Position numbers and translations under genes: made by a program. A DNA stretch of 31,465 bases from the NCBI GenBank assembly GCA_026770585.1, contig MU646458.1, positions 212,716 to 244,180 of the forward strand. The letters are read 5' to 3'. Of the stretch, positions 6,901 to 31,465 are shown in pieces. A model generated the notes under the pieces. The model was given only the letters and a program-made list of their open reading frames with translations, had not been told where the DNA came from and did no database searches. Source of the DNA: Baffinella frigidus (taxonomy: Eukaryota; Cryptophyceae; Cryptomonadales; Baffinellaceae). Each line of letters begins with the position of its first letter. Position 1 is the stretch's first letter.

Positions 6901-9900
6901 AGAGAGAGCGAGAGAGAGCGAGAGCGAGAGAGAGAGAGAGAGAGAGGAGCGAGAGAGAAAGAGAGAGAGGAGAGAGCGAGCGAGAAGGAGAGCGAAAGAG
7001 AGTTCTTTATTGACGACCAACTGGTCCGGATCCACCTCATCATGGCTCAGACGGTTTCTGGATCCACCGCATCATGGCTCAGGTGAGACGTCAGGGCCAT
7101 TGCAACACGAAAACGCTAGAGAGGCCAATTTAAAATCGTTGTCTTTTACAAGTGGGCAGTTGTGTAGTAGATTTCGTTGATTGGTCACGTAACTCTGCAA
7201 AATTAGCACAGTTACGAAGCTGGAATACCCTATCCTGCTACAAATGTTTACAACCCCACATGTCAATAAGTTCCTCCAGCAATCTCGAGTGGTGGTGGAA
7301 GGACGTGCGAATGTATGGTGGCAAATTTTCGTCAGCAAAGAGAACAAGGAGGGGGGACATATCATGCGAGTTGTTTGAATGCACCTCGGGGGCAGGAGCA
7401 TTCAAAGCTTCCCGGAGTGTCGCGACAGTACGCCAGATACTGCACACACCGATCTCTCAGCGACACAACCCTTGAGGACATCAACTTGGGCGTTCAGCGC
7501 TCAAAACCGCGGGCTCAAATCGCGGGGTGGGGAGGTACATGGCAGGTGGTCGTCCCAAGAGAGCACTCGGGGATGTCGTGACACTCCTTGCCTGAAGCGG
7601 AGAGGGGGGGGTTCTTCACTCTCTTGGGAGGTTCTAGCAGGGAATTGTGATCGCTTTCTCTTTAGGGGTTTTGTTGAGGGGGGAAACCGGTGGTGGCATG
7701 ATGCTCAAAGCCGTCGTCGCAGAGGCACTCGAAGTCAAGGTCCGTGTTTTGACACGTCGAATACGCGTTGCAGGTGTGTGTCCCGTTGTAACACTCATCA
7801 GGGCAACACTCTCCCTCCGAAAAGATCGTTGCCATCGTCGCATAACCGCCGGGAGGCGACTTGAAGCTGTGAGGATTGCAACCCGTGAGGTCCTCGCCTC
7901 CAACAATGTCGTCGAAGAGATAGGCACAGGAGAGGGGCCAAAGCGCCACCAATCCAGGTGTGGCAGACGCCTCCTCCCATTCGATGCGCTCGTTCATCTG
8001 GGCCTGAATATCCGACTCGGACCTGGTCGAGTTCCAGAGCCTCACCTCCGTCATGTTCCCCACAAACTCCTCAAGAGGAGTGAACGACTGGCACAACCCG
8101 TCTTGTTCCTGCCCCAGCGTGACGCAGCCTCCGTCCCCGATCGATTTGCACTCGAACTTCCATGACGTGAAGATGAGGTCTCCGTCCTTGTAGAACTTCG
8201 CCTGGCAGCATTTGACGGGATAGGGGGGGTTCGCTCCAATCGTGCAGACCGAGGTGTTGGTCCGCGAGACTGCAATATGATGCCAGCGTCCGTCCGCAAG
8301 GTCCCACGTATCTAACCCAGAGGTCACGGTCCCGGAACCTTGAGTTTTAATGTGCATCCTCGCCGTTGCAGGTGTAGCAAGATCACGGGTCCACACCAGG
8401 AGGGCGTCGGTCCCGCCTGCAAAATAGGAGAACAGGGTGATTCTGTCTCCGGGAAACCCGTCAGGAATCTGGACCCAGAGCTCGATGGTGAAGTCGCTGA
8501 GCGCGAGCCCGGGGTTGAAACCGCAGGTCCCGAGATACGTCCCGTTGTCGAAGACTGCATGACCCGTTGCGTTGAGGAGGGTGCTGGCCGAGCAAGCCTG
8601 TGAAAGGCCACAGGTCAGGGACCCTTTTTTCATCCCAACGAGTTTTCAGAGAGCAGGGGGGTTCAACCGGATCCTGAGCCTGAAACCCTGAACGTTCCAC
8701 ATTGCAAGGCTCGGGGTTCCAAAAGGATGGCACAGTGGTAGAAGGCTTTGGCACAGTATGAGGGAGCTTTGGCACAGAGGGAGAAGGCAGGTTTGGCACA
8801 GTTTGAGAAAGCTGTGGCACAGTAGGAAAAGGCTTTAGTTCAGTAGGAGAAGATTTTGGCACAGAAGGAACCGGCTTTTGCAATGTAGGAGACGGCTTTT
8901 GAAAAGAAGGAGAAAGCTTTGACTCAGTAGCAGCAGGCTTTGAAACGCCAGGAAACGGCTTTAGCACAGTAGGAGAACGCTGAGGTAGGAGAACGCTGAG
9001 GTAAAGCACGAGACGGTTTCTCCACAATAGGAGACAGAGAACCATTTTGAACCATTTTGAACCGTGTAACAGACCATACAGGGATGGTCAAGAGATATAT
9101 ACTCAGACCGTGTAGGAGGTGGAGTTAGAATCCATCCGGAAAATGCTCGTATGAGCGGCCGACACGGGGTACAGTAAGTGGCACAATGCGTAGCATGTGC
9201 GGCTTTGACGCTGGTTGTTTGGCAATAAATTATCAATCTCTCTCTCTGCTCAGACCCCCGTCAACCATAACTTTGGCATAGAAGGATCAAGCTTTTCCAT
9301 CGCCGAGCACACACGTCCAAAGCACACTCTTTTCTCAGGACAAAGAAAAGAAGCTCTAAAATCGAGGGTGGAGAAGCACAAACAGGTTGTTTAGTGGGAA
9401 ATCCAGAAATGACTCCGATATCACGGACTATGATGCCTCCAACTTTTCTGCCTCTCTACTTTTCTACTTAATTTGCCAGAAGGGGGGGAAGGGTACGTGA
9501 AACCAGATGCAGTAATTTTGGGGGAGTCATATTTTGTGCATGTTTGCGGGCCTCTGATGCCCCATATTCATGAAATGAATTTGAAGAGGACCTTTTGAGG
9601 ATTCCAGATCCTTCCAGAAAAGTGAAACGAGCCCAGGAGTTCAAACGTTACACCCAATCGAGCGCCCAACAGGTCCACGTTGGGCCCAGGAAACTTCGCA
9701 GAGCCAGGTTTTGGGGGCCCTGCCGGGCTTACTACAAAAATGTGAAACCACATTTGTGAACGTTGAAAGTACAACCCTGTATACCTACAGGCCATCTATG
9801 CGACTCCCGGTACAAACTTTCCGATAGATGGACGCATCCCGGTTTTCTCTGTTGGGATTAGATGTCTCCATAATCTTCGTTACTCTACAATTGAAAACAG

Positions 9901-15157: not shown

Positions 15158-15352
15158 TAGTTGGCTAATTCCTACTTATGAAGACTACGACCTTTCAGGA
15201 TGTCACTCCCGGTTCTGCCACGACCCTGCACTGGAGGGCTGGATGCGTCAAAGCAGGGCCAACCTGCGCATCCTCTCCGCCTATGTTGAGAGAAATCAAA
15301 CCCTCAAGGACCTAACGGACTTTTACAGCGAGGCATACTTTCCCAGGAAAGC

Positions 15353-15470
15353 CTAGCTCTGTCTCACTCGCGTTGACCGACTATTCTCAAGTTGACATCT
15401 TGAGTTTTTTGTACACACCCGTCAACTTTGGAGCGAAAAAGAGCCAGGTCTCAAACAATTGATGAGGGGA
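15353..15470 (+). mobile_element. Family B' element, copy 1
   Basis: CTAGCTCTGTCTCACTC, then TTCTCAAGTTGACAT, GTCAACTTTGGAGCGAAAAA and GAGCC. Same inner block as 21581-21719 (inverted), 23058-23190 and 26671-26809. Right end not clear. Confidence 0.65.
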
Positions 15471-15549: not shown

Positions 15550-16335
15550 CTACCCTTTAGCGCTAAAAAGCCCGCGAACCCAACGCGCGCACTTCCCCAC
15601 CCCCCCGATCGTAGCCTGGACCGGAAGGAAGACAGCGCGAAACGGTCGCATCGCGGGGTTCTCTTTTTTGGGGTCCTGGTCAGCGTGGAGGCCTTGAAGG
15701 GATTCACAATGCTGAGGCCACTCGGTGTTTCTGGTGGAGGACTTGCCCTCGAGGAGGCCTGTGAGGGATACACACGTCAGAGGCCACGATGTGTGTGGGG
15801 TGAAGACGGTGTCGGAGGAAGGGACGGAGTGGGCGGCGACGGACACTCTGAAGGCCCCTCCCTGCTGCAGGTTATCCTCGGCGTCTTCTGCGTCCAGCGA
15901 GCGTGCTGCATCGGCGCCCTCGTTTGCAGGATCCAGCAGCGGATTCCCCGCCAGCAAGCTCACCAAATGATGGTGGCCACGCAGAGCAGCCCACCACTTG
16001 GCCGATTTCCCGATGGTGTCTTGTGCCTTGATGTCCGCTCCCACGGCAATGAGCGAGGTCGCCATCGCATGGTCTCCTTTGAAGGCGGCCCAAAAGAGCG
16101 GCGTCCACCCCGTTTTGTCCTTGGCCTTGGCGTCTGCACCGTTAGAAAGGAGGGCGATCACGGCGTCGTTCTGGTCTGTGATAGCTGCCCTTTGCAGCGG
16201 GGTCCACCCATCGATCTCTTTGACCGCCTCAAACGGTCCCGTGAGGTTACCAGGTTCTGCGTCAGTATCTTCCCATCTCTGGGCCACCACCAAGACCACT
16301 ACCAGCGTCCACAAGAACGCAGCTCTCTTCACCAT
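15550..16335 (-). CDS. Ankyrin-repeat protein with N-terminal signal peptide or anchor
   Basis: An open frame runs from 16413, but the methionine at 16335 is preferred because it is followed at once by a hydrophobic stretch (AAFLWTLVVVLVVAQ), giving a secretory leader or membrane anchor. Ankyrin repeats follow: about residues 42-74 (DGWTPLQRAA...LLSNGADAKAKD), 75-107 (TGWTPLFWAA...LIAVGADIKAQD), and a weaker third, 108-133. Ankyrin repeats mediate protein-protein binding. The tail after about residue 158 is pyrimidine-rich and contains two tandemly related segments, each with an acceptor-like AG followed by GCCTCC (exon starts at 15758 and 15692). The 3' part is therefore probably intron plus duplicated exon, not continuous coding. 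The frame stops at 15550. Confidence 0.7.
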   Translation of the reverse strand: MVKRAAFLWTLVVVLVVAQRWEDTDAEPGNLTGPFEAVKEIDGWTPLQRAAITDQNDAVIALLSNGADAKAKDKTGWTPLFWAAFKGDHAMATSLIAVGADIKAQDTIGKSAKWWAALRGHHHLVSLLAGNPLLDPANEGADAARSLDAEDAEDNLQQGGAFRVSVAAHSVPSSDTVFTPHTSWPLTCVSLTGLLEGKSSTRNTEWPQHCESLQGLHADQDPKKENPAMRPFRAVFLPVQATIGGVGKCARWVRGLFSAKG

Positions 16336-16588
16336 CCCTTCCGGTATCCAGGCCGACCAATGACTGCCAGGACTGAATTCGGTTCCCAGCCCCATCAAAA
16401 ATCGATTATTCAATTTATTTGACTCGATTTTTTTTGGTTGCGAGACTGGTCAAACAAGACGCCGGTCCGGTCGGTGTCCCTTACTCTCGCTCTCGTCTCA
16501 CCTCGCCTTCTGGTCGTGTATGCAAATTCATCGTCGCGACAATTTATTACACCCCGCTTCACCCAGAAAGGGGCGCCTCTGGATCCTG

Positions 16589-17205: not shown

Positions 17206-17327
17206 CAAGGGTACCTCGCTCATACGAAACACCCCCCCCCCCAAGGACCACCCTAGGGCCCTAAGCATAGGCCTACTGTAGAGTCCTAGCTAGGGGAAGG
17301 CACTTGCGTTTGACCGAGGTACCCCTG
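17206..17327. mobile_element. MITE family A, copy 3
   Basis: AAGGGTACCTCGCTCATACG at the left, GACCGAGGTACCCCTG at the right, CCTAGGGCCCTAAGC core. Followed by TACACGTTCCAGAGAGA, the same flank as copy 4. Confidence 0.8.
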
Positions 17328-17359
17328 TACACGTTCCAGAGAGAGAGTCGCATCAGATA

Positions 17360-17479
17360 CAGGGGTACCTCGCTCATAAGAAAGTGCCACCCCCTAGGAC
17401 GCGTACAGTAGGCCTATGCCAAGGGCCCTCTGATGGTCCTAGTGGGGGGGGGCGCTTTCTTATGAGCGAGGTACCCCTG
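17360..17479. mobile_element. MITE family A, copy 4 (most intact)
   Basis: 120 bp; both ends match over about 28 bp (CAGGGGTACCTCGCTCATAA and GAAAG on one side, the complement on the other). Bounded by TA on both sides and followed by TACACGTTCCAGAGAGA like copy 3, so copies 3 and 4 arose by a local duplication that included flanking DNA. Confidence 0.9.
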
Positions 17480-18048: not shown

Positions 18049-18171
18049 CAGGGGTACCTCGCTCATAAGAGACCGCCGCCCCCCGAGAACCCTACAGCAG
18101 GACCATGCCTAGGGTCCTATGGTTGTCCTAGCTAGGGGGGAGGGAGGTTTCTTACGAGCGAGGTGCCCCTG
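18049..18171. mobile_element. MITE family A, copy 6
   Basis: CAGGGGTACCTCGCTCATAA at the left, TTACGAGCGAGGTGCCCCTG at the right, with two CpG-to-TpG-type or A/G changes in the right arm. Confidence 0.85.
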
Positions 18172-18608: not shown

Positions 18609-18653
18609 TTACGCAGCGGCAAGGCCCTTGAGGAGCACCACCGCATCTTGCAC
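18609..18653 (-). CDS. Gene 2 last exon (C-terminus and stop)
   Basis: Follows GGCGCGCGCAG and encodes VQDAVVLLKGLAAA then TAA. Phase 0 matches the donor after KVGHQQ. It is the only one of four related copies (others starting at 18990, about 19092 and 19205) that reaches a stop at the expected place. Confidence 0.75.
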   Translation of the reverse strand: MQDAVVLLKGLAAA

Positions 18654-20639
18654 CTGCGCGCGCCTTTTCCTTCAGCATAAACCCTAAACTCCAAACCCTG
18701 AACCCTACCTACTACTGAACTTCCCTGGCGTGCTTTTCGAATTCCTCCCGGCCCGAATCAGACCCGGGGTTGGGTCACATAAAAAAGATTTCCACAACTT
18801 TGCACATGATTCTTCGAAGGAATTGACTTTGATCCATTTCACAACCAGGATTTTAAAGTCCTCGCGGCAAAATCGAAAGGCAACTTCGAAAGGCACGCCA
18901 GTGAGGTTCAGTAGTAAACCCTACCCAAACCCTTTGGGTGGAGCTCCACCCAAAGGCAAGGCCCTTGAGGAGCACGACCGCGTCCTGCACCTCCTCGCGC
19001 CGTTTCGTTCAGTGGAAACCCTAAAACCTAAACCCTAAACCCTGAACCCCAACGTGTGGGGGGAAGAAACACAGCGTCCTGCACCTCCTCGCGGCTTTTC
19101 GTTCAGCGTAAACCCTAAAAGCTCAATCCTGAACCCTACCCAAACCCTACCTGAACCTCTGCCCCACCCAGAGGCAAGGCCGTTGAGCACCACAGCGTGC
19201 TGGACCTGCAAGGCGCTCAACGTTTCGTTTGGCGCCATCCCCGCTCAAGGCGGACCGTGCCATTTGTTGAAACGCTACACGTGGGTGCTTAAAACCGTTT
19301 CGGGGTGCTTAAAACCTTTTCGTAGACATGTAGCGCCATTTTGGACCCGCCGCAAAAAATCCTTTTATTTTTGTATGGGGGGTGCGGGGGGGAGAAGGCG
19401 GGGAGAATGGGGGGGAAGGGGGAGGAAGGAGGGGGAGGTGGGGGGCACTTGCTGATGGCCAACTTTCGGGAGGAAGGCGCTGCTGCGCCCGTAGCTCTTG
19501 ATCCCCAGCACTAGGAAGCCCGGCTCAGGGTGGGGTGGGGGACTGAGGCCGCCAACGCCAACCCCCAACCCCTCAGCAGGCTTGCGCCGCAGGGCGCCGC
19601 AGGCTTATCGCCGTGTTCTACTCTCTGTACTCTCTACTCCCTGGGTGTGCTACTCTCTGTACACTCTCTGTACACGCTTGTGTACTCTCAGGGTGCTTTT
19701 CGCCGGTAGGGTCGTCGGCGCGTGCTAAGGGTGTACTGTTTCGGTAGGGTAGGGTCGGTAGGGGTGTGTAGGGTTAAGGGCGGAGGGGTGAGGGATGAGG
19801 GTGCACCTGCTGATGGCCAACCTTGAGGAGGAACGCGCTGCTGCGCCCGTAGCTCTTCATTCCCAGCACCTTCGGGTTTGGGGTTTGGGGTTTGGGGTTT
19901 GGGGTTTGGGGTTTGGGGTTTGGGGTTTGGGGTTTGNNNNNNNNNNNNNNNNNNNNNNNNNNNNNNNNNNNNNNNNNNNNNNNNNNNNNNNNNNNNNNNN
20001 NNNNNNNNNNNNNNNNNNNNNNNNNNNNNNNNNNNNNNNNNNNNNNNNNNNNNNNNNNNNNNNNNNNNNNNNNNNNNNNNNNNNNNNNNNNNNNNNNNNN
20101 NNNNNNNNNNNNNNNNNNNNNNNNNNNNNNNNNNNNNNNNNNNNNNNNNNNNNNNNNNNNNNNNNNNNNNNNNNNNNNNNNNNNNNNNNNNNNNNNNNNN
20201 NNNNNNNNNNNNNNNNNNNNNNNNNNNNNNNNNNNNNNNNNNNNNNNNNNNNNNNNNNNNNNNNNNNNNNNNNNNNNNNNNNNNNNNNNNNNNNNNNNNN
20301 NNNNNNNNNNNNNNNNNNNNNNNNNNNNNNNNNNNNNNNNNNNNNNNNNNNNNNNNNNNNNNNNNNNNNCCTAACCGTAGGGCCGGAGGTTTGGTCAGGG
20401 GTCTGGAGAGTTTCCGGACCGTGCGATACCTGCGACGTGAAGAGGGAGAACAGGTCATTGACTCCATCACGACTCACGACAGCCGAGGGTTCCGGGATTT
20501 GGGTTTTGGGATTTGGGTTTGGGGGTTTGGGGTCTAGGGTTTAAGGCATAGGGTCCAGCGTTTATGGTTTAGGGTGTTTGGGATCTGCGAGAGAAAGTCG
20601 CCGCCGCCGCCTGACGCAGACATGAGGTCTCTCTCTTTC

Positions 20640-20681
<42 letters not shown>

Positions 20682-23600
20682 GTTCTTTCTCGCTCATTTC
20701 CTCTCTCTCGCGCTCTTTCTCGCTCTCTCTCATTCTCTCTGTCATTCTCTCTCTCTCTCTCTCTCTCATTCTCTCTCTCTCCCTCCCACCCCCGGGATTC
20801 ACCTGTGCAAGGCAGTCGCCGGCGCCGCCAGACGCAGACATGAGCGCAGCCGCGAGCTTCATCGGCCCTGAGGTGGCATAGCACTGGTGCACCTGCAAAA
20901 CACTTTTCGGTTCAGGGTCTAGCGTTTGATGTTTGGGGTGTGGGGTGTGACGGTTACGAACGTATTAAGGGCCACACCTACACGTGTAGTCGTATGCTCT
21001 TGCACCTGCACAGCGACCCACTTGAATTACCAACTGAGAGAGAGACTGTTGGTGACATGCGGGCAGCTGCGAGCTTCCTGGGACCCGATGTCGCGTAGCA
21101 CCACACACTGGACTTCCAAGGCATTTTGAATAACCCCTTAGCGAGAAGACTAAGGTCCCTACGGTAGGCAATCCGTAGGGACATAGGGGGGTTCCTACGG
21201 ATAAGGTAACGGAAAGTCGGCCCGGTTTGGGCCGAAAATGCCTTCGTAGCCCGCTGTGTGGCTGGTGCACCTGGAGAACACGGTGTGAATGTTACGAACG
21301 TATGCAGGGGTGTAGTTGTAAAATCTATACAATCTATTCTTCCACACAGTGGACTACGGAACTTTCATCATCAAAAGTCAACTTACCCTGTGGGTAGTTA
21401 ACTTTGAGGATTTTCTAATGCAAATTTGGTCACGTTACCGCTAAATCTAGGGGCCCCGAAACCCTCGAAGCCCACCGTGTGGGTAGCTGAATAATATATA
21501 CATCTTTTGTAATTTCCTTTCCTACTGCAGAATCGTTTCGCTGAGTTACAGACCGTAAAACTGGAAAGTATTACCACTAAGCTCTGCCTCAGTCTGATTC
21601 GGTCTCACCAATTTGGTGAGACCAGGATCTTTTCCTCGCCAAAGTTGACGGATTTGTACCGCATACCCAGCATGTCAACTTGAGAATAGTCTGGCAGTCC
21701 ACCCGAGTCAGGCAGAGCTGGCATCTGGGCACCAGACCTGCACTTCCAACCAGAAACTGTCATCTGGGCGAACCCCGCAGCACGCCACCACCGTATCAAC
21801 CAGCACCGTGGACAATCCACAGACCCTACGGTAGGCAATCCGTAGGGACACGGGGATATTCCCAGGGATATCTTAACGGGACGTCGCGCAAGTTGGGCCG
21901 GAAATACCGTGGTAGCCCGCCCGGGCGGGCGTGGACTGACGCGGATCCGGGCGGCCCACCTGGGCGCGCCATGTACATACAATACATTTGGAGCAGCAAC
22001 TCTGGTGCACACGTGCAACTCAACTGCATTTTTGGAAAACCCAGATTTAGTGAGGCAGAGCTAGGGATCTGGGACACACACCTGGACCTCCGACCAGAGG
22101 GTGTCGTCCGGGCGAAACCCACAGCACGCCACCACCGTGTCCGCCAGAACCGCCCCCCCCCCCTCCCCCTCGTCCCCCTCGCCTCCCGCGGTAGGAGTGC
22201 GTTCGAGGGTCAGCTGGATGGGCCCGGCGGGACCCGATGGGAGCGAGAACTCTGCACCCCGCCCTTGATGTTATTTTGGGAACGCTGCAGAGACCTTTGC
22301 ACAGCTTTTACAGGAGGAATGTGCGCGTTTGGAATCGGCGGGATGGGGCCTTCGGGAACCGATGGGAGGGAGAACTCTGCACGCCACAATCCAAAGTGGC
22401 CAAAACGACTTTCGGAGGCCAGCCGGCATGGTCCCTCTCTTCCAAACCCCTCTTCCGCTAGATGGGCCCGTTGGGTCCCGATGGGATGGAGAACTCTGCC
22501 GCACGGGAGCCGCTTGTCGTGATTTTGTTTAGTGGCTTGCCAAAGACGTTTTCACAGGAGTAATTGTCGAACTCTGCACGCGCCACTCGAAAATGCTGGA
22601 AGAGCCTATTTACATGTGGGGTTGTAAACAAATGTACCAGGATAGGGTATTCCCTCCTCGTGTATTTGCAAAAAAACATAGAATGGCTCCAAAGGCAATG
22701 AAAGTTACTACACAAAGGCTACATCTCGGTTTTAAATAGGTCCCTCTAGCATTCTCGTGTTGGGAGCCGCCACCCGACCCGTGTTGTTAATTTGGAAACG
22801 GTGATGCACTTTTTGGAAACGTTATAGAGACCTTTGCACATCAGAAAGGTAACTTAGGATTCTGATGGATTGCTGAGGTTGCTGGGGAGTTGCCCAGGGT
22901 GCTTGCGACATGAAAAGGGATGTTTCGGTTTTCGGTTTTCGATTTTCGATTTTCGGGTTTCGGGCTTCGGTTTCAGGTTTCAGGATTCAGGGTTCAGGGT
23001 CGAGGAAAATCTGAAACGCTGCATCTACCGTGAAACGTGACCGGGAGACTCGCCGGGCACACTTGGGTTGACTGCCAGACTATTCCCAAGTTGACATGCT
23101 GGGTGTGCGTTACAAATCCGTCAACTTTGGAGCGGAAAAGAGCCCGGGCTCGCAAAATAAGTGGGACTAAATAGGCTGAGGCAGAGCTAGGAGTCACACC
23201 TGAAACGCTGCATCCGCCGTGAAACGTGACCGGGAGACACTCAGGAGATTTGCCCCCTGCCATCTCATTCCCTGCCGGAGTTCCCCGCCATGTCACACAC
23301 GGGGATTCACCTGAGGTTCATTCCCGAGATTTGTACCAGAAACATGCCAAAAGCCACCGCAACCATGTGGAGTTTGTACCATGAAACACGTTTATAGCGA
23401 AACATCGCGTTCTGGAATTCCCACGTGTGAGGTGCATCCGCCGTGAAACATGACCGGGAGACACTCCGGGGACTTGCCCCCTGCCATCTCGTTGCCTGCA
23501 CGCCAACGCGCCTCGCTGTTGAGCTGGCGAAACAGAAAGTCTTTCTATTACTTCTGCCACGAGTCGGCCACTTGAGGAAATACATCGAGGATTCCTGGGG

Positions 23601-26600
23601 GCAAAAATGACTTTAGGCCGAAGCCGAGATCAGCTTTGGCCTCCACAGGGAGTTCAAACTAAGCCTGCCTGGCCGGGAGACAGGCTGGGGACTTGGGAGG
23701 GTGTGTAGGGTTTAGGGTTTATGGTTTAGGGTTTAGGGTTTATGGTTTAGGGTTTAGGGTTTATGGTTTAGGGTTTTTGGTTTAGGTTTTATGAGACAAG
23801 CTGGGGTCTTGACCCCTGCCATGTCGTCGCCTGCGAGAGTTTGGTCCAGGATCAGGTTTGGTTCAGGTTCAGGTTTGGTTTAGGCTCAGGCTGGGGTTTG
23901 GTCCAGGATCAGGGTTGTTTCAGGTTCAGGGTTGGTTCAGGTTCAGGTTCAGGTTTGGCCAGGTTAGGTCTAGGTTCAGGTGTGCTCCAGGTTGGATCTG
24001 GCTCAGATTCAGGATCAGGGTTGGCCCAGGTTCAGGTTTGGTTCAGGTTCGGGTTTGGTTCAGCATGCAAGTGCTGAAACTAGCGGTGGAGGTCTGGCTC
24101 TACCTCACTTCATCTGGGGTTCTCACTAAATAAATTTCGATGCTCTTTGTACTGGAGCGTTTGTACGGAGTCCTGATCTACGAGGAGCCTGGATTAAATA
24201 AGGCAGAGATAGGAGGTATACCCATAGCGTAGAGGCGGTCCCGCTGCGGGAGAGGGTCGTTGTCCACTCGCTGGTAGGGCGTGTTTGATCCCCGCGCCAC
24301 CCACTCGACTTTGACGACGCCCTTGTGTTGCTCCGCCACCTTTGGGGGTTGGGGTTTGGGGTTTGGGGTCTGGGGTTGAGGGTTGAGGGTTGAGGGTTTA
24401 GGGTTTAGGGTTTAGGGTTTATGGTTCAGGGTCTTGGGTTTAGGGTTCAGATCACCTCTTTGCGGGAGTTAATCATGGTGATTGGTACATAGTTTTTGGT
24501 GTTTAGTGTTTCTTATAAACCCTAAACCCTAACCTCCCTTTTAAACCCATGAGGACTTCTCACCTCTCTGAGAGAGTTGCTCGTGGCGATGGGTAGACGG
24601 TTTAGGGTATAGGGTCTGGTGTTTCGAATGGACCCTACACCCTAACCCCTTCTCACCTCTTTGAGAGAGTTGATCATGGTGATGGCGCTCGCGCCCGTCC
24701 CGACGACCGCGACCGTTTTGCCTGTTTCAGGGTTTAAATAACATAAGATCATTAAAACCAATAATATCATTAGGTTCACCTTTATGCTATCTTAGCGGCG
24801 GGTTTATGGTATGCTACATCGAGGCGATGGGGGGGGCGCTCTGATACACCATCGTGCGTCGTCAACCCTCCACTTAGCAGCGGCCGAGTTCCTTTTCGCC
24901 TTGAAATCAAGGTAAAACTACGGTTGGAATTCAGGGCAATAGATAAGATTCTAGTACAAATCGTTTAGATGGACTGTGTCCGTGATGCCCCCGGTGGCTG
25001 TTAAGTGGAACCCTAAAATGTGGGGGTTGATCATGGTGATTGCACTCGCGCCCGTACCTACGACCGCAACAGTTTTGCCTGTTTCAGGGTCTATGATTCA
25101 GGGTTTTGGGTATTGCAGAGTAACTCATGCAAAGGCTCGCGCCCGTCCCGACGACCGCGACCGTTTTTCCTGGGTATAGGGTTTAGGGTTCAGGGGTCAC
25201 AGACATGTTGAAGGCCTACTCCCTACACCCTACACCCTCCCAAAAGGTCAAACGGCGTACCCAGGATCTTCTCAGGAGAGGCGAGAGGGTCGCAGATTTG
25301 CTGAAGGATCCGCCCTGACTCGGCACCCATCACTGTCTCAGGAGATACCAGGGGGAGGGTTGTAGGAACACAGTAGTTTCCTATGAACTCAACAGGAGTT
25401 TGCTATAAACTCAATAGAAGCTTCCTATCAACTCAATAGGAGTTGACTATACACTCAATGGGAGTCGTACCCAGTAATTTCCCAGGAGCAGCGGGTCGCA
25501 GATATTCTGCAGGATCCACCCAGCATCAAACGGTACATGAATTTCGGAGGAGACGCAAGGGGGTCGTCCACCAGCAACCCCGAGCGGCTCAAATCCGCGC
25601 GTCGGAGCGGATGTTTCGGTCCTCCGCTCGGCGGGCTTGGAGGGTTTCGGATTTGAATTTGGGGCCGGATTCTGGGTTACGTGACCAAATTTACACCATC
25701 AAATCCTTGGTTATCTCTAGGCAAGAAAACTTTTGTTGAACCGTCCGTAGTCCACCGTGTGGAGGACCCTACGGTAGCAAATCCCCAGGTACCTAGGGAT
25801 TTCCTAGAGGGGTGGATAGATGGCGATAAAGACTGCGAGCGTCTCCCTGGTGAAAATTACTACAGGTGGAAACCCCGGTTTGAGACGCTTCGGGTTGTTG
25901 GGGGGGGTACCTCGGAACTTCTCAGAGGAAGCGAGCGGGTCGCAGATATGCTGGAGGATCCGCCCTGATGCCGCGAGCTTCCGCTCGTTCTGAAATCCCC
26001 ACTTGTGCCCGGGCGTGGGTCGATGCCAGGGGGGGGGGGTCCTATGAACTCAACGGGAGTTTACTATCAAATCAATAGGAGTTTCGTATCAACTCAATAT
26101 AAGTTTCGTATCAACTCAATAGGAGTTGACTATAAACTCAATAGGAGGCGTACCTAGGAACTTCTGAGGAGATGCGAGAGGGTCGCAGATATGCTGGAGG
26201 ATCCGCCCGGACGCCGCGAGCTTGCGTTCGTTGACGGCAGGGACCCCCCCCGCGCCGCTCCAGTTCGGCTGCACAGGTTATGCTTCAGCGAGCACGATGC
26301 ACGATGCAAATGTTTGTATACCCGATTTGTTTTTGGATCTATTGGATGTAACGCCGCAAAATCCTGGGTGCTGAGGAGCGGAGGCCAGGTGCAGGGGAAC
26401 AAGAGGACTTGACTGCGACTGATCGCTTTACTGTAAAGCACCGGATGCTGAAAGATGGTGTGGTATAAAGCAGCTGATGGAGAGCACCCATAAATCTTGC
26501 AGATGGACAGCCTCGGCGGGGGTGCATACATGGCGGCAGTATCGGTAGAAATAAAGGTCTCTCCCACGTTTTCTGAGTTGATTGCTATCTTCGCTGTTGG

Positions 26601-29600
26601 GCCTTCAGGTGTGGGTAGGACCGGCCCGCCTCGGTATCAGCCAGGGACAGCAACTGGCCGCGACCACAATCTAGCTCTGCTTCATTTGGGTCGATGGACT
26701 ATTCCTAAGTTGACATGCTGGTTTTGCGGTACAACTTCGTCAACTTTGGAGCGGGACAGAGCCCGGGCTCACCAATTTGGTGAGACCAAGTAGACTGAGA
26801 CACAGCTAGACTGGAACTGGCCGTTTCCACGTGATAAAGGAGGTGAGTTGTATGAGTTGTATCGCGAGAGCCGCTTTACAAATCTATTCCTAGAGACGAC
26901 CACACGGCGCCACTAGTGACCTCTAATCCACCCTGTAATTTTTTGACACCGGGTAGTAATCTGATCTTAAAGAGTTTTAGGTCCGATCTGAACTACCACG
27001 AGGTTTCGAGAGATATCGGTCTCGGGCCTAATTTGAGTCTTTCTAATATCTTCCGTCACAGGCACACTCGAAAGAGATCTAGATCTTTCTAGACCTTCTG
27101 CGACCGCGTTGCAGCGACTATTAACCAGAAAATAGTTTTGACACTTGACGTTTTACAACACGTGCACAGATTATACAATGCCTTTTTAGGCCTGTACATC
27201 TCCTAGTTATGGAATTCGAAGCCTATGAGAGGTGACACGTAGCGTTGTGTGGGAGCCTGCTCACCTGGTTCCAGGTGCCAGAGCAGTCGAGGACGTAGTC
27301 GAACGGCTGCATCATCGCTTCGTCTCCGCCCCTGTTGACGAGCAGGCGGAAGGGGGTCGTGATGCGCCGCTTCTTCCCTCCAATGTCGTCCTTCTTCAGG
27401 AGGTGGCCCCGCCCGATGTTGGTCACCTGGTTTGGCCAGAAGAGTTTAGGAGGGAGCAGGGGGGTTGTCGTTTCGGGTGGGGAATTTCCAGGTTTCGGGT
27501 TTTGGGGTTAAGGGTTTAGAGCGTCGGTGAGGCAAGGTTTGCCCCTCCAATGTCGTCCTTCTTCAGAAGATGTCCTGTCCCCACCCAGTAGAAGCCACCT
27601 GTTTAATATTTTATGGTTTCGGGTTTCGGGTTTCGGGTTTCGGGATTTGGGTTTCGGGGTTCGGGTTCAGGGATTCGTGTTTCGGGTTTAGAGCGTCGAG
27701 GTTATGAGTCGCTTCCCCCCGCCAATGTCGTCCTTCTTCAGGAGGTGTCCCCACCCAATTGACTTCACCAGAGGGGGTTGAATTGAAATTAAGGGTCTCA
27801 ATGAGGATGGCAATGTCTAAGTTAGGGCGGCCTAAACTAAGAAAAGGCGATTTATGATAGCTCTGAAGGGAGGGCTGTTCGGGCTTTGGGTTTTGGGGTT
27901 GGGGTTTAGGGTTCAGAGCGTCCTACAGAGGTCACCTGGTTTCGTGTTTGGTGTTTGGTGTTTGGTGTTTGGTGTTTCGGGTGTAGAGGGTCGGAGGCGG
28001 TATCAGTCCCCCGCACGCGTGCCGACTGATCGCAGGCTTCTCTGGTACCAATCCTTCCCAGGCCAAACACTGGACCCTGGATCCTATACCCGAAACCCTA
28101 AACCAAGTACCTCGCAGCCGAGAGCGAGGTCGCACTTGCCGCTCTTCTCCGCGAGCCACTTTGCAAGGACGTCGACGTACTGAGCCACGTACTCCTTCCC
28201 GGTAGGGAACCTGCCCACGAACGTGCATCAATCAGCCACTCACGCAAGGTTTCGGGGTTTCTTCACTCTGTTTCGGCAGCTGAAACCTCGGGTTTAGGGT
28301 TTTCTTCAAGGTCTCGGGTTTCGGGTCTCGGGTTGCAAGCACGTCCACGTACTGTGCGAGGAACTCCTTGCCCGTAGGGAACCTGCCAAACGATCAAATG
28401 GTCAAATTTATTGGATACCCACATAATCGCAAACTCCAGGGTGTTCCAGAGCGGAATCCAGCCGCAGGGAAGCTGCGGAACATCGTGTCACGCCAGGTCA
28501 CAAGTGGCAAATTCACAACGCGAAGTTTCGCTGTATAAGTGGTCTGTGGTTCAAATTCCACATTGCGGCGGCGGGCTATTGACTCTTGGCGTGTTCTTGC
28601 TACGAATCGGTACAAATCGTGGGAACCAGCTTCAGGAAAATTCCCACTTGTGACCGGGCGTGGCATCAACAAGTCACTCAAAGAATCTGACGGAATGACC
28701 AACACCACGTATGCCGAACAACAACAGTCGACTGTTCGGAAACAGTCCTTGGATCCCTTATATTCCCCTCAGAATCTGATACGCGGGGTTTCGGGTTCCG
28801 GGGTTCGGGTTCCGGGTTTCGGGATTCGGGGTTCGGGGATATACACGCTGTCATCGGGGATAGGAGCAGACACCTCGGTTTCAGGATTCGGGTTCGGGAT
28901 TGGTGTTCCGGGTTTCGTTTTTCGGGTTTCGGGGGTATACACGGTGTCGTCGGGGATAGGCGCAGCCATCTCTCCAAGCACGCGACGCCCAGCAGGCGAC
29001 ATATTCAGCGCCCAGCTTGAAAACAGCTCCACATGCCCCCTGCAAACCACCAACGAGCTTAGCGTTGAGCTGCCGAAACAGAGTCCTTCTATTATTATTA
29101 TTTATACCACGGATCGGCCACTTCGGAAGATAAATTTCGGAATTCCCCCCGCGATTCGCCAAAAGTTGAACATCTGAAGAGCACGCGCCGCCCAGCAGGA
29201 GACATGTTGAGGGACCACCAGCTTGAGAGCAGCTCTAAGTGCCCCCTGATACCAAATGATAGTTTATTGGATGCCCAAATAAGATCACAATTTCCTAGAA
29301 TCATTGGCATGGATGTGATAGAAGAGATTTGTTTTTGATAGTAGCGAGGCGTTTTTTGATAGGAGAGAGCCGTTTCTTGATAGTTGAAAGACGTTTCTTG
29401 ATAGACGATAACTGGCAATTTAATCACAACTTACTGGATATACCGGCAAGCACCATGTTCACAGTCTAGGGAAAGGCTCAGCGACTAACTGGGTTCGGGA
29501 ATTTCGGTTGGGTTTGGGGATGGCACCACTCGCGCACATTAGCAGCCACGGAGTTTCCGCGCTCCAGCACCTAGAACAGGCGTGCGCCGCTTAGGGGCGT

Positions 29601-30047
29601 CAAGAATAGACACAGGGAGAGCGAGAGCGAGAGCGAGAGAGTGAGCGAGAGAGAGAGAGCTGCACACAAAGCGCGGATCCGCCACCGAGCGAAGGGCTCA
29701 AGCGACAAAGCTGGTGGAGGTCATGGGGCGGAGCATACCGTGACACGGAACCCCTCGTCGACCAGGTGCACGGCGGCCTCGATGCCGACGGGCCCGCCGC
29801 CAATCACAGCGACGTTCCTTGAGCCAGGCCCGGACATGCCTGGCACCGGAACCGAGAAGGAGGAGACGCTTGGGGCGGAAAGGAGGAGCTGTAGGAGGAG
29901 GAAGAAGGCGGGAGCGAGCAGGGGCGCTGCCCGCAAGGGTGAGCGCGGGAGGGGCACGGTTGCGACGCTCCGAGGAACGGAGAGGGAAGGCTCCGCTGCT
30001 GTGTCCTGTGCTAAAGCCCTCCAGGACCAAACGCTTTTGGTTGACAA
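18609..30047 (-). CDS. FAD/NAD(P)-dependent oxidoreductase, FMO-like (gene 2), ~13 exons
   Basis: Exons with agreeing phase: 30047-29739, 29570-29527, 29039-28941, 28210-28111, 27426-27265, 26268-26154, 24721-24657, 24339-24222, 23271-23200, 22182-22082, 20892-20803, 19869-19807 (or the longer copy at 19449-19540), 18653-18609. Together 1383 nt, 460 residues and stop, a normal size for flavin-dependent monooxygenase-like proteins. Motifs: FAD-binding VAVIGGGPVGIEAA (~79-92), substrate/FAD segment GHVELFSSW, FDYVLDCSGTWNQ (~228-238), a second Rossmann motif VAVVGTGASA (~280-289), VVACCGFRPDD (ATG-like hinge of the family), and KSYGRSSAFLLKVGHQQ near the C-terminus. Known: such enzymes oxidise substrates using FAD and NAD(P)H. 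Substrate unknown. Nearly every exon has extra partial copies in neighbouring introns. The exon-12 region borders a 433-base gap, so its exact form is open. Confidence 0.82.
18940..19205 (-). pseudogene. Three extra copies of the gene 2 last exon
   Basis: Starts at 19205 (VQHAVVLNGLASGWG), about 19092 (partial VQDAV) and 18990 (VQDAVVLLKGLAFGW), each after an AG. They are separated by CCCTAAA-like stretches and a shared upstream segment (GTTTCGTTCAG / CCGTTTCGTTC). They lack the stop after GLA and may be relics or alternative ends. Confidence 0.6.
19449..19540 (-). pseudogene. Second copy of the gene 2 KSYGR exon, longer 5' end
   Basis: Reads PEPGFLVLGIKSYGRSSAFL then PKVGHQQ, ending at GTGCCC. 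It includes the PEPGF segment that family members have before VLGMKSYGR, so this could be the functional copy and 19869-19807 the truncated one, or a mixture. Confidence 0.55.
19807..19869 (-). CDS. Gene 2 KSYGR exon, copy next to the assembly gap
   Basis: VLGMKSYGRSSAFLLKVGHQ then Q, ending at a GTGCAC donor in phase 0. Its 5' side is a TTTGGGG array that runs into the run of N, so the true exon start may be hidden or lost. Confidence 0.6.
19872..19936 (+). repeat. TTTGGGG array entering the gap
   Basis: Nine perfect GGGTTTG units, then N. Homogeneous, unlike the mixed arrays elsewhere. Confidence 0.9.
19937..20369. other. Assembly gap, 433 N
   Basis: Run of N. Nothing can be said of its content; the left flank suggests that collapse of a TTTGGGG array caused it. 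Confidence 0.99.
20583..20627 (-). pseudogene. 3' fragment copy of the gene 2 VHQCYATSGP exon
   Basis: LMSASGGGGDFLSQ, resembling LMSASGGAGDCLAQ of 20892-20803, but followed by AT not GT, so the donor is lost. Confidence 0.55.
20628..20790 (+). repeat. CTGT/CT microsatellite
   Basis: Nine or so TGTC units (20640-20680) followed by CTCTCTCGCTCTTTCT runs. The antisense frames (RERERE) are not coding. Confidence 0.9.
20803..20892 (-). CDS. Gene 2 exon 11 (CYATSGPMKLAAAL)
   Basis: Thirty codons between CATTTTGCAG-like acceptor and GTGAAT donor, both phase 0: VHQCYATSGPMKLAAALMSA and SGGAGDCLAQ. It continues directly from SEVQ of exon 10. Confidence 0.75.
21055..21124 (-). pseudogene. 5' fragment copy of gene 2 exon 11
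   Basis: VWCYATSGPRKLAAARMS followed by unrelated sequence; preceded by AAGTCCAG. Truncated at its 3' end. Confidence 0.6.
21152..21260. repeat. R6 dispersed repeat, copy 1
   Basis: CCCTACGGTAGGCAATCCGT, AGGGACA, then GGCCGAAAATGCC(T/G) and GTAGCCCGC. A second copy at 21824-21918 and a fragment at about 25768. The first block is itself a short hairpin (CCCTACGG ... CCGTAGGG). Confidence 0.7.
21338..21485 (+). repeat. Dispersed repeat R4, copy 2
   Basis: CACAGTGGACTACGGAACTTTCATC (block), AAAAGTCAACTT, TTTGGTCACGTTAC, CCCCGAAACCCTCGA. Confidence 0.6.
21581..21719 (-). mobile_element. Family B' element, copy 2
   Basis: GCTCTGCCTCAG left end, GGCAGAGC right end. Inner TTTGGTGAGACC, AAAGTTGACGGATTTGTACC and CATGTCAACTTGAGAATAGT, inverted relative to 15353 and 26671. 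Confidence 0.75.
21745..21806 (-). pseudogene. Extra copy of gene 2 exon 10
   Basis: VLVDTVVACCGVRPDDSFWL then EVQ and GTCTGG. It aligns with 22182-22082 (VLADTVVACCGFRPDDTLWS, EVQ). The donor is kept; the 5' end is lost into R6. Confidence 0.6.
22082..22182 (-). CDS. Gene 2 exon 10 (GFRPDD)
   Basis: After the AG at 22184-22183: an acidic/glycine segment read through a G-run, then VLADTVVACCGFRPDDTLWS and EVQ, ending at GTGTGT. Phase 1 in, phase 0 out, both consistent. The G-run makes the 5' half sensitive to sequencing error. Confidence 0.65.
22216..22500. repeat. ~122-bp tandem repeat, three units
   Basis: GATGGGCCCGGCGGGACCCG / GATGGGGCCTTCGGGAACCG / GATGGGCCCGTTGGGTCCCG, each followed by ATGGGA...GAGAACTCTGC, at about 22216, 22340 and 22459. 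In gene 2 intron 9. Confidence 0.75.
22595..22715 (-). repeat. R3-type element, inverted copy
   Basis: TTTACATGTGGGGTTGTAAA, AGGATAGGGTATTCC, then AAAGTTACTACACA. Reverse of the order seen at 7155-7292. Confidence 0.65.
22925..23000 (+). repeat. TTTTCGG / TTTCGGG degenerate array
   Basis: GGTTTTCGGTTTTCGATTTTC grading into TTTCGGG, TTTCAGG and TTCAGGG units. Confidence 0.8.
23058..23190 (+). mobile_element. Family B' element, copy 3 (left end decayed)
   Basis: CTATTCCCAAGTTGACATGC, TCCGTCAACTTTGGAGCGGA, AGAGCCCGGGCTC and a terminal GAGGCAGAGCTAG. Confidence 0.65.
23200..23271 (-). CDS. Gene 2 exon 9 (GNEMAGGKSPE)
   Basis: Acceptor CCGGCAG, phase 1; donor GTGTGA, phase 1. NEMAGGKSPECLPVTFHGGC then SVS. 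Chosen over its neighbours because it alone keeps both splice sites; 23505-23430 has an equally good acceptor. Confidence 0.65.
23704..23790 (+). repeat. TTTAGGG / TTTATGG array
   Basis: Higher-order pattern of two TTTAGGG and one TTTATGG unit, repeated. Confidence 0.85.
23842..24065 (+). repeat. CAGGTT / GGTTTGGTTCAGG low-complexity tract
   Basis: Irregular CAGGTTCAGG and TTTGGTNCAGG units; purine/T only on this strand. Translations (QVQVWFRF) are simple-repeat artefacts. Confidence 0.85.
24222..24339 (-). CDS. Gene 2 exon 8 (DPLPQRDRLYAM)
   Basis: Acceptor AACCCCCAAAG at the edge of a TTTGGGG/TTGAGGG array; donor GTATAC. It encodes VAEQHKGVVKVEWVARGSNT and PYQRVDNDPLPQRDRLYAM. No duplicate copy seen, unlike most other exons. 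Confidence 0.8.
24350..24455 (+). repeat. TTTGGGG-to-TTTAGGG array
   Basis: Begins TTTGGGG next to exon 8, then TTGAGGG, then TTTAGGG. Borders a remnant of exon 7. Confidence 0.85.
24445..25170 (-). pseudogene. Partial copies of gene 2 exon 7
   Basis: 5' copies: 25078-25023 (KTVAVVGTGASAITMIN, then lost) and 25176-25132 (KTVAVVGTGAS). 3' copies with donor: about 24605-24555 (INSLRE, GTGAGA) and 24482-24449 (TMINSRKE, GTGATC). They are separated by short TTTAGGG-like tracts. Confidence 0.7.
24657..24721 (-). CDS. Gene 2 exon 7: second Rossmann (NAD(P)-binding) motif
   Basis: Acceptor CTGAAACAG, phase 1; donor GTGAGA, phase 0. KTVAVVGTGASAITMINSLK then E: the GxGxSA signature of the NADPH site in FMO-like enzymes. 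Five partial copies surround it. Confidence 0.8.
25381..25464 (+). repeat. 22-bp minisatellite, copy 1
   Basis: Four units CTAT(G/A/C)AACTCAATAGGAGTT-like, between two exon-6 copies. Confidence 0.8.
25672..25765 (-). repeat. Dispersed repeat R4, copy 3 (inverted)
   Basis: GTTACGTGACCAAATTTACA, CTTTTGTTGAACC, GTAGTCCACCGTGTGG. Confidence 0.5.
26040..26148 (+). repeat. 22-bp minisatellite, copy 2
   Basis: Five units of the same sequence as 25381-25464, again between two exon-6 copies, so exon copy, minisatellite and exon copy form a larger duplicated block. Confidence 0.8.
26154..26268 (-). CDS. Gene 2 exon 6 (PNWSGAGGVPAVNERK)
   Basis: Acceptor AACCTGTGCAG, phase 0, continuing from GTWNQ; donor GTACGC, phase 1. 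PNWSGAGGVPAVNERKLAAS and GRILQHICDPLASPQKFL. The only copy with the full 5' half. Confidence 0.78.
26671..26809 (+). mobile_element. Family B' element, copy 4 (complete)
   Basis: CTAGCTCTGCTTCA left end, TGAGACACAGCTAG right end, with CAAGTTGACAT-type and GTCAACTTTGGAGCGGGACA inner arms. In gene 2 intron 5. Confidence 0.78.
27265..27426 (-). CDS. Gene 2 exon 5 (FDYVLDCSGTWNQ)
   Basis: 54 codons, phase 0 both ends; acceptor GGCCAAACCAG, donor GTGAGC. Contains GHLLKKDDIGG, FRLLVNRGGDE and FDYVLDCSGTWNQ. Confidence 0.82.
27530..27770 (-). pseudogene. Two 5' copies of gene 2 exon 5
   Basis: GHLLKKDDIGG is repeated at about 27545-27590 (after AATATTAAACAG) and 27720-27765. Each is followed by a shared GAGCGTCG(G/A) block and a TTTCGGG array; unit about 170 bp. 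Confidence 0.7.
27605..27690 (+). repeat. TTTCGGG array
   Basis: Mostly GGGTTTC units, between two exon-5 copies. Confidence 0.85.
28111..28210 (-). CDS. Gene 2 exon 4 (FPTGKEYVAQY)
   Basis: Acceptor GTGGGCAG, phase 2; donor GTACTT, phase 0. FPTGKEYVAQYVDVLAKWLA and EKSGKCDLALGCE. Confidence 0.8.
28334..28382 (-). pseudogene. 5' copy of gene 2 exon 4
   Basis: Acceptor TTTGGCAG kept; FPTGKEFLAQYVDVLA, then TTTCGGG-like repeat replaces the rest and the donor. Confidence 0.72.
28489..28662. mobile_element. MITE with 25-bp inverted ends
   Basis: CACGCCAGGTCACAAGTGGC...AATT and CACGCCCGGTCACAAGTGGG (complement of the right end). 174 bp, in gene 2 intron 3. A half copy lies at 25990-26018. Confidence 0.82.
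28787..28935 (+). repeat. TTTCGGG/TTCCGGG array with embedded exon-3 copy
   Basis: GGGTTTCGGGTTCCGGGGTTC units. Interrupted at 28838-28892 by a 3' fragment of exon 3 (SAPIPDDS, GTATAT). Confidence 0.8.
28941..29039 (-). CDS. Gene 2 exon 3 (GHVELFSSWALNMSP)
   Basis: Acceptor GGTTTGCAG, phase 2; donor GTATAC, phase 2. GHVELFSSWALNMSPAGRRV and LGEMAAPIPDDT. A 5' copy (GHLELLSSWWSLNMSPAGRR) with its own acceptor is at 29245-29175. Confidence 0.78.
29175..29245 (-). pseudogene. 5' copy of gene 2 exon 3
   Basis: GHLELLSSWWSLNMSPAGRR then VLF, preceded by TGGTATCAG. No donor at the matching place. It has one extra codon relative to exon 3. Confidence 0.65.
29527..29570 (-). CDS. Gene 2 exon 2 (VLERGNSVAANVREW)
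   Basis: Acceptor CACGCCTGTTCTAG, phase 0; donor GTGCCA, phase 2. It links the FAD motif of exon 1 to GHVELF of exon 3; the split tryptophan codon is completed by the first base of exon 3. Confidence 0.8.
29607..29660 (+). repeat. GAGAGC microsatellite
   Basis: GAGAGCGAGAGCGAGAGCGA and GAGA runs in gene 2 intron 1. Confidence 0.9.
29739..30047 (-). CDS. Gene 2 exon 1: leader and FAD-binding motif
   Basis: 103 codons ending at a GTATGC donor, phase 0. Residues ~45-60 are strongly hydrophobic (FFLLLQLLLSA) and are followed by SVSSFSVPV and then the Rossmann GGGPVG at 83-88. A hydrophobic leader followed by a Ser/Phe-containing segment resembles the bipartite presequence of proteins sent into complex plastids, but a long polar stretch precedes the hydrophobic core, so secretory or membrane-anchored alternatives stay open. 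The chosen ATG is the only in-frame start before the Rossmann motif except one at residue 71. Confidence 0.8.
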
Positions 30048-30970: not shown

Positions 30971-31465
30971 AGGCAACTTATGGGTAGATCTATGGTTGCT
31001 TAAGTCAACTCTCTTGCAAATTCGCCCGGAATCCGGGCGCATCTGCGGGAGATTGACTTAGGATTTGCCCCTGGGTTCCCTCCAGGGTGGCCCCAAACCC
31101 TAAGCCCTAAACCCGTCTGAGGTACTCGTTCTTCTGCCCTCACGCCCAACACCGCCCTCCACCTTAATTCGGAAACAAGTGTTTTTCTTTAGAAAATATG
31201 GCAAGGACAATTACTACACACAGTTCACGTCCCGAAGCATTTGTGTAGTAATTTTCAAGCAGATTTGTTTTTTAACAATACTTGTTCCTTGATGGACCTC
31301 CCCCCTCCTCACTCGCGTAACGCGTTCAACCAGCGCCGCATGCGATATTTCGGGGTAACTAATGCTTTCCCCCTGAACCCCCCCCCCCCCCCCCCCCCCC
31401 CCCCACTCTCAACCCCATACCCCAAACCCCAAACCTCAACCCCCCCCCCCCCCCCCCCCCCCCCC
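30971..31465. other. Right end: no gene seen
   Basis: Contains a short CCCTAAGCCCTAAACC stretch near 31100, the inverted repeat AATTACTACACA/TGTGTAGTAATT (31209-31250, R3-type ends with about 18 bp between), and poly-C runs at 31378-31404 and 31441-31465. Confidence 0.6.
31209..31250. mobile_element. Minimal R3-type inverted repeat
   Basis: AATTACTACACACAG and its near complement TTTGTGTAGTAATTTTC, 42 bp in all. The same end sequence occurs singly at 10683, 13385, 17022, 22704 and 25855. Confidence 0.6.

Follow-up and report, generated by a model that had tools for sequence, protein, structure and literature searches.

Ordered exon fragments beside the exons of a Baffinella frigidus oxidoreductase gene and in some other loci of the genome

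Why should nearly every exon of a gene be accompanied by incomplete copies of itself? The question is raised by a stretch of 31,465 nucleotides from the cryptophyte Baffinella frigidus (contig MU646458.1, positions 212,716 to 244,180; this whole stretch is called the window in this text, and positions count from its first letter). A first-pass annotation had described an oxidoreductase gene in which ten exons have neighboring copies and exons 1, 2 and 8 are single. Using each exon with 80-nt flanks as a BLASTN query against both strands of the window, we obtained the same sets, and the coordinates proved right: partial copies were found for exons 3, 4, 5, 6, 7, 9, 10, 11, 12 and 13, and none for exons 1, 2 and 8 on either strand. 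E-values ranged from about 2e-4 to 5e-34, except for one exon-9 copy (0.008), and the flanks contribute to some of them. Three low-complexity exon-10 hits at 31368–31465 and hits touching flanks only were dropped. At 27930–27942, 13 nt match the start of exon 5, too short a match to be counted.

The gene comprises 13 exons on the minus strand (29837–18609) and is of the FAD/NAD(P) type. Eleven exons spliced at canonical AG/GT sites form a single open frame; next come the exon-12 pieces and the final exon, which has the TAA. The product scores 35.1 bits against the Pfam model Pyr_redox_2 (cut-off 26.1), and further FAD/NAD(P)-binding models match as well, identifying it as an FAD/NAD(P)-binding oxidoreductase. 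Its best protein match is T484DRAFT_1791833, a ‘hypothetical protein’ of Baffinella frigidus. By eye, this public model agrees with most window exons, is without exon 3 and the end, and treats copies of exons 4, 6 and 9 as further exons. In a protein search of the assembly, 21 candidates were scored and 15 of 15 matches lay inside the oxidoreductase gene; thus, no second locus or version was found in the 382,457,362 bases searched, the reported genome size being 534.5 Mb (PMC9756366). The G+C content of the window equals the 53.9% reported for Baffinella CCMP2293 (PMC9756366). An oxidoreductase transcript was not among the matches listed (the best 120 of 319, and a second listing of 2), and Rfam and tRNA scans of the window gave no match.

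The window has other features of its own. A dispersed element of about 90–130 bp occurs in both orientations, with copies 76–85% alike (21580–21708, 23061–23188, 26673–26780, 15342–15466). A long, imperfectly self-complementary stretch at 17206–17479 has relatives near 18050, and positions 10713–10752 form a perfect palindrome of 40 nt. Two long open frames on the minus strand look ankyrin-repeat-like (15550–16449) and LamG/EGF-type-like (7662–8645) by eye.

Exon 12 needs a separate word. Partial copies of it exist, as annotated, but the complete exon is not in the sequence. A 5' piece (20429–20385, recognized by eye from the frame and homologues) is followed by the only N run of the whole window (20369–19937, 433 bases) and then by two 3' pieces. 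Because these parts come in order, the complete exon 12 is expected inside the gap. The exons and fragments, with the basis of each assignment in brackets, are as follows.

29739–29837, minus: exon 1, single; FAD-binding GxGxxG start (spliced frame; no BLASTN copy)
29527–29570, minus: exon 2, single (spliced frame; no BLASTN copy)
29180–29254, minus: exon 3 5' fragment, exon positions -9 to 63, upstream of exon (BLASTN, alignment)
28941–29039, minus: exon 3, complete (spliced frame)
28835–28876, minus: exon 3 3' fragment, 68 onwards, downstream (BLASTN, alignment)
28333–28387, minus: exon 4 5' fragment, -4 to 50, upstream (BLASTN, alignment)
28111–28210, minus: exon 4, complete (spliced frame)
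27701–27759, minus: exon 5 5' fragment, 10 to 68, acceptor AG lost (BLASTN)
27543–27604, minus: exon 5 5' fragment, 19 to 51 by BLASTN, to -5 with a gap in the detailed alignment
27265–27426, minus: exon 5, complete; genome matches are itself and its own fragment only (spliced frame)
26154–26268, minus: exon 6, complete (spliced frame)
25901–25989, minus: exon 6 3' fragment, 37 to 125, downstream (BLASTN, alignment)
25440–25521, minus: exon 6 3' fragment, 61 onwards, downstream (BLASTN, alignment)
25254–25324, minus: exon 6 3' fragment, 52 to 122, downstream (BLASTN, alignment)
25135–25185, minus: exon 7 5' fragment, -14 to 35, one difference in exon part (BLASTN, codon-position alignment)
25019–25093, minus: exon 7 5' fragment; in the tight alignment (-14 to 53), 6 of 6 coding differences are third-position (alignments)
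24657–24721, minus: exon 7, complete; second nucleotide-binding motif by eye (spliced frame)
24556–24592, minus: exon 7 3' fragment, 37 to 73 (BLASTN)
24452–24482, minus: exon 7 3' fragment, 39 to 69 (BLASTN)
24222–24339, minus: exon 8, single (spliced frame; no BLASTN copy)
23793–23841, minus: exon 9 5' fragment, -10 to 38, weakest match, E 0.008 (BLASTN)
23433–23499, minus: exon 9 5' fragment, -3 to 63 of 72 (BLASTN)
23200–23271, minus: exon 9, complete (spliced frame)
23011–23049, minus: exon 9 3' fragment, 34 to 72, donor GT lost (BLASTN, alignment)
22454–22499, minus: exon 10 5' fragment, contains stop codon (BLASTN)
22335–22385, minus: exon 10 5' fragment (BLASTN)
22082–22251, minus: exon 10, complete (spliced frame)
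21706–21808, minus: exon 10 3' fragment, 100 onwards (BLASTN)
21054–21117, minus: exon 11 5' fragment, 9 to 56 (BLASTN)
20803–20892, minus: exon 11, complete (spliced frame)
20585–20626, minus: exon 11 3' fragment, donor GT lost (BLASTN, alignment)
20385–20429, minus: exon 12 5' piece, low end approximate (by eye)
19937–20369: N gap, expected site of complete exon 12
19771–19869, minus: exon 12 3' piece, GT donor kept (alignment)
19449–19532, minus: exon 12 3' piece, longer
19166–19209, minus: exon 13 5' fragment (BLASTN)
19070–19140, minus: exon 13 5' fragment, homology 55 nt into intron (BLASTN)
18955–19043, minus: exon 13 5' fragment, homology 52 nt into intron (BLASTN)
18609–18653, minus: exon 13, last, with TAA

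Every copy shares the strand of the gene, and the copies follow a strict order. All 14 of the 5' fragments lie upstream of their complete exon and all nine 3' fragments downstream; under a coin toss, the chance of 23 in 23 is near 1e-7. The three exon-12 pieces, which stand outside the 23, obey the same rule if the complete exon is in the gap. There are up to four pieces per exon, and each of the 23 classed copies is partial, so that whole-exon tandem duplication (complete copies that have an open frame and two splice sites) does not describe them. As annotated, fragments keep one splice site: the acceptor AG is present in 13 of 14 5' fragments and the donor GT in seven of nine 3' fragments, the two that have lost GT belonging to exons 9 and 11. 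For the closest fragment pairs of four exons, the 5' and 3' breakpoints nearly meet (exon 3, 63/68; exon 7, 35/37; exon 9, 38/34; exon 11, 56/49), as if they were the product of one break. They do not meet for exon 10 (42/100), nor for the remaining fragments of exons 7 and 9.

It is chiefly the exons that have been copied. After masking of arrays and telomere-like runs, 10 of 13 exons vs 4 of 53 intron segments of 90 nt had a copy on the same strand at most 1.2 kb away, which means that the introns between copies are mostly without detectable copying. The homology often ends 3–14 nt outside the acceptor. Before the exon 11 5' fragment at 21054–21117 come about 10 nt similar to the end of exon 10, with the intron seemingly absent, a weak match. 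A tandem gene array does not fit, since the 15 genome matches are all within this gene and the copies keep to the exon order, and the earlier exon-by-exon description holds. Two complete interleaved genes, which the first-pass annotation had named as one case that would overturn it, can be rejected: exon 7 has four fragments, no other locus matches, and the three fragments of exon 6 are 78–85% alike mutually and 83–89% like the exon. The order rule, the coding-like divergence of the fragments and the recurrence in other genes had been missed.

The trait is not special to the oxidoreductase gene and recurs in some, not all, of the sampled loci. The clearest case is a 10-kb TCP-1 alpha locus (L048, gene at L048:129-8893), whose 18 spliced exons are collinear with P0121, a TCP-1 alpha protein from the mmetsp and eukprot transcript sets, and reproduce it exactly. 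Judging by this exact match, P0121 probably comes from the same strain as the assembly. Each of the 17 introns has one splice solution, GC-AG in one of them. The introns contain seven fragments adjoining six exons, and none of the seven is present in P0121. Three donor-side fragments lie downstream and three acceptor-side fragments upstream of their exons; the seventh, which reaches neither splice site, is upstream. A self-match of exon 17 in inverted orientation was set aside. In the masked test, 3 of 18 exons had copies, against 0 of 32 intron segments.

We also sampled 20 regions, four of which were readable wholly or partly (L020, L028, L030 and L032). L030 and L032 contain 18 and 12 direct local pairs, respectively, and no inverted ones. 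Thirteen of their copies could be classed by eye and all 13 fit the order rule, the remaining families being unclassed. L028, which is mostly N, has one local pair. L020 (C3:100001-110000), which has no TTTAGGG/CCCTAAA, is unlike L030 and L032, with 31 direct and 13 inverted pairs. In L049, a 3-kb part of a class I aminoacyl-tRNA synthetase gene that was located with PF00133 and used for the local-pair count only, there are ten direct pairs, all around one motif, and no inverted ones. No local direct pair was seen in the 3 kb of another TCP-1-family gene on C6 (L042), indicating that the trait is frequent but not universal.

The fragments of the window gene differ from their exons in a way that resembles coding sequence. 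In tight alignments of 24 fragment-exon pairs (the exon-12 pair being fragment vs fragment), differences at codon positions 1, 2 and 3 number 25/367, 27/366 and 103/365, i.e. 28% at third positions vs 7% at the first two. The resulting third-to-first/second ratio is 3.98 (bootstrap 2.85–5.66); looser alignments of 25 copies (41/400, 38/396, 116/397) give about 2.9. Simulated fragments that are neutral since duplication reach 1.43–1.55, and at most 2.07 with strong mutation bias. Since position-3 differences are also near balance (40 with G/C in the exon and A/T in the fragment, 32 the reverse), mutation bias as the source of the third-position excess is rejected. At 54 amino-acid differences, the residue commoner among 39 homologues is in the exon 35 times and in the fragment 17 times, with two ties; thus, the exon side has changed too. 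These 17 rows represent 14 distinct sites, where random replacement predicts 6.0 (0 of 1000 draws as high). At two positions, the exon 12 3' piece at 19771–19869 has a residue that homologues carry more often than that of the other piece. Together, the codon ratio and the residue test indicate that the two versions were both functional while much of their divergence accumulated.

A frame-free codon test agreed with the signature for the window gene (0 of 4000 draws). Among the other loci tested it was found in L030 only (p 0.0045 vs a uniform model, 0.0185 vs a 1:1:1.5 model); L030, L032 and L048 pooled gave 0.014 and 0.054. It was absent from L032 (0.55), from TCP-1 alpha (0.20) and from a set of six loci of C6, C39 and C1202 that partly overlap (0.47), so that many fragments may be plain decayed duplications. 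A reading in terms of diverged versions therefore rests mainly on the oxidoreductase gene.

With moderate confidence, we regard the copies as non-coding exon fossils left by exon-anchored duplicative repair or recombination, here partly from diverged functional versions. Local duplication would recur, one side pairing in the exon and the other being joined without homology in the intron. The product would be an exon piece on its own outer splice site, with a complete exon put or kept beside it. A 5' piece with an acceptor only, or a 3' piece with a donor only, would be ignored by splicing, so that the gene survives and the piece persists; duplications breaking the complete exon would be lost. 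Such exon-paired, intron end-joined repair would account for the partial copies, their order and strand, the meeting ends and the uncopied introns. Many pieces of the window gene would have diverged largely under protein-coding constraint before decaying beside the exon. Divergence of this kind suggests that donor and recipient were diverged functional versions, i.e. alleles or lost copies, and with a diverged repair partner the codon signature would follow. A bolder form of this idea, which we put forward tentatively, is that non-exon sequence in this alga diverges so fast that homologous chromosomes can pair only at exons. Through exon-anchored repair and end joining, introns would then accrete exon fossils that are snapshots of past alleles.

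It is possible, if somewhat unlikely, that plain serial tandem duplication is sufficient, through slippage or unequal exchange whose two breakpoints lie one in the intron and the other in the exon. The fragments would have been neutral since, and the introns would turn over too fast to show their share. This process yields the order rule by itself and needs no partner. It would suit the more than 50 nt of intron homology in two exon-13 fragments and in TCP-1 alpha exons 7 and 9 (in the latter largely telomere-like sequence), the near-adjacent duplication in L032 (7375-7511/7525-7663), which includes about 100 nt of intron, and the missing codon signature in L032 and TCP-1 alpha. Exons 9 and 13 show the order of distances that suits it; exon 6 does not, nor does exon 7 when judged by exon part. 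The mostly uncopied introns between copies argue against it, as does the codon ratio of 3.98 (2.9 in the looser set) when simulations gave 1.4–2.1. The 17 of 54 differences in which the exon looks changed are compatible with serial duplication, but only if the exon changes much faster than the fragment.

Telomere-like repeats offer another route. The motifs CCCNAAA/TTTNGGG occur as degenerate repeats in 10 of 12 introns of the window gene and 14 of 17 of TCP-1 alpha, far above what base composition predicts, and they have the repeat type and the internal position of interstitial telomeric sequence. We take TTTAGGG to be the likely telomere unit of this species. On the sense strand, CCCNAAA prevails over TTTNGGG (56 vs 10 in the window gene, 126 vs 6 in TCP-1 alpha). 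The motifs reach up to several splice sites and might act as branch or pyrimidine sequence. If double-strand breaks were staggered across a splice site, then filled in and closed with telomere-like sequence, a long target duplication would flank that filler. The abundance of the motifs and the frequent end of homology 3–14 nt outside the acceptor would agree with this, and in the horse, where short interstitial telomeric sequences were inserted at double-strand breaks, a few of these insertions are reported with flanking duplication (PMC7215372). However, broken ends are not significantly near the motifs (median 51.5 nt vs 95.5 nt for random positions, p 0.06), the borders of 27 introns show no excess of direct repeats and no target-site duplication, and the codon signature is left unexplained. 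We consider this route unlikely. The earlier suggestion of replication slippage or break repair at telomere-like tracts was right in kind as regards local duplication, and a direct role of the tracts at the breakpoints is weakly supported. An origin of all introns by insertion with target duplication is likewise rejected, there being no signal at the 27 borders.

Could the assembler have braided several diverged haplotypes? The assembly was made from Illumina reads with AllPaths-LG (PMC9756366), and the fragments resemble diverged alleles. However, the single N run in the window places most copies within contigs, exon 7 would require up to five versions, pieces are without their other half, and the TCP-1 alpha exons are collinear with a transcript-derived protein. 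An artefact of this kind is quite improbable.

In tandem exon duplication with mutually exclusive splicing, neighboring exon copies also lie in order, but the Baffinella copies are incomplete and without one splice site. That they serve as alternative exons or their reservoir, as the first-pass annotation had considered, is very improbable: the outer splice sites are mostly kept and T484DRAFT_1791833 includes copies of exons 4, 6 and 9, but 23 of 23 classed copies are partial, each motif occurs once in seven of seven homologues inspected by eye, and no TCP-1 alpha fragment is in the transcript-derived protein. Alternative splicing is thus unlikely, and the copies are likely fossils of exon duplication.

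Related processes have been described elsewhere. In Drosophila, introns were gained by tandem duplication of exonic sequence (PMC2891723). As in that account, exon sequence is duplicated locally and part of it becomes intronic; here, however, this recurs beside existing introns, leaves as many as four pieces per exon and usually creates no new intron, and border repeats are not in excess in 27 introns. One possible exception is L030:8357-8922, where two exon-like stretches are split by a telomere-like intron with CGCAG at both borders, and a downstream fragment joins both stretches without the intron. As a fossil, this fragment could predate the gain of the intron; it could also derive from spliced RNA or have lost the intron by deletion between the short repeats. 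Like the horse sequences outlined in PMC7215372, the Baffinella repeats are internal and telomere-like, sometimes with flanking duplication. Unlike them, they are degenerate, present in most introns and mostly oriented with the C-rich strand as sense, and the copied sequence is exonic. With introners, as presented in PMC9860276, the exon fragments share large-scale intron change by a recurrent process, but here we found no target-site duplication, and the repeated part is the gene's own exon. A search of the PMC literature by title and start of abstract returned no paper describing exon fragments in cryptophyte introns.

Automatic gene models of the Baffinella genome can err where fragments are strung in, as in T484DRAFT_1791833. 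The accretion of exon fragments may also contribute to the large genome of Baffinella, 534.5 Mb compared with 87.2 Mb in Guillardia theta (PMC9756366). The role of diverged alleles is the most interesting question that the exon fossils pose. If the process is real, introns grow recurrently by products that stay in position and orientation and, in the window gene, preserve a coding history that can still be read. The introns themselves could then show how they grew, which duplications are older than others and what earlier alleles looked like.
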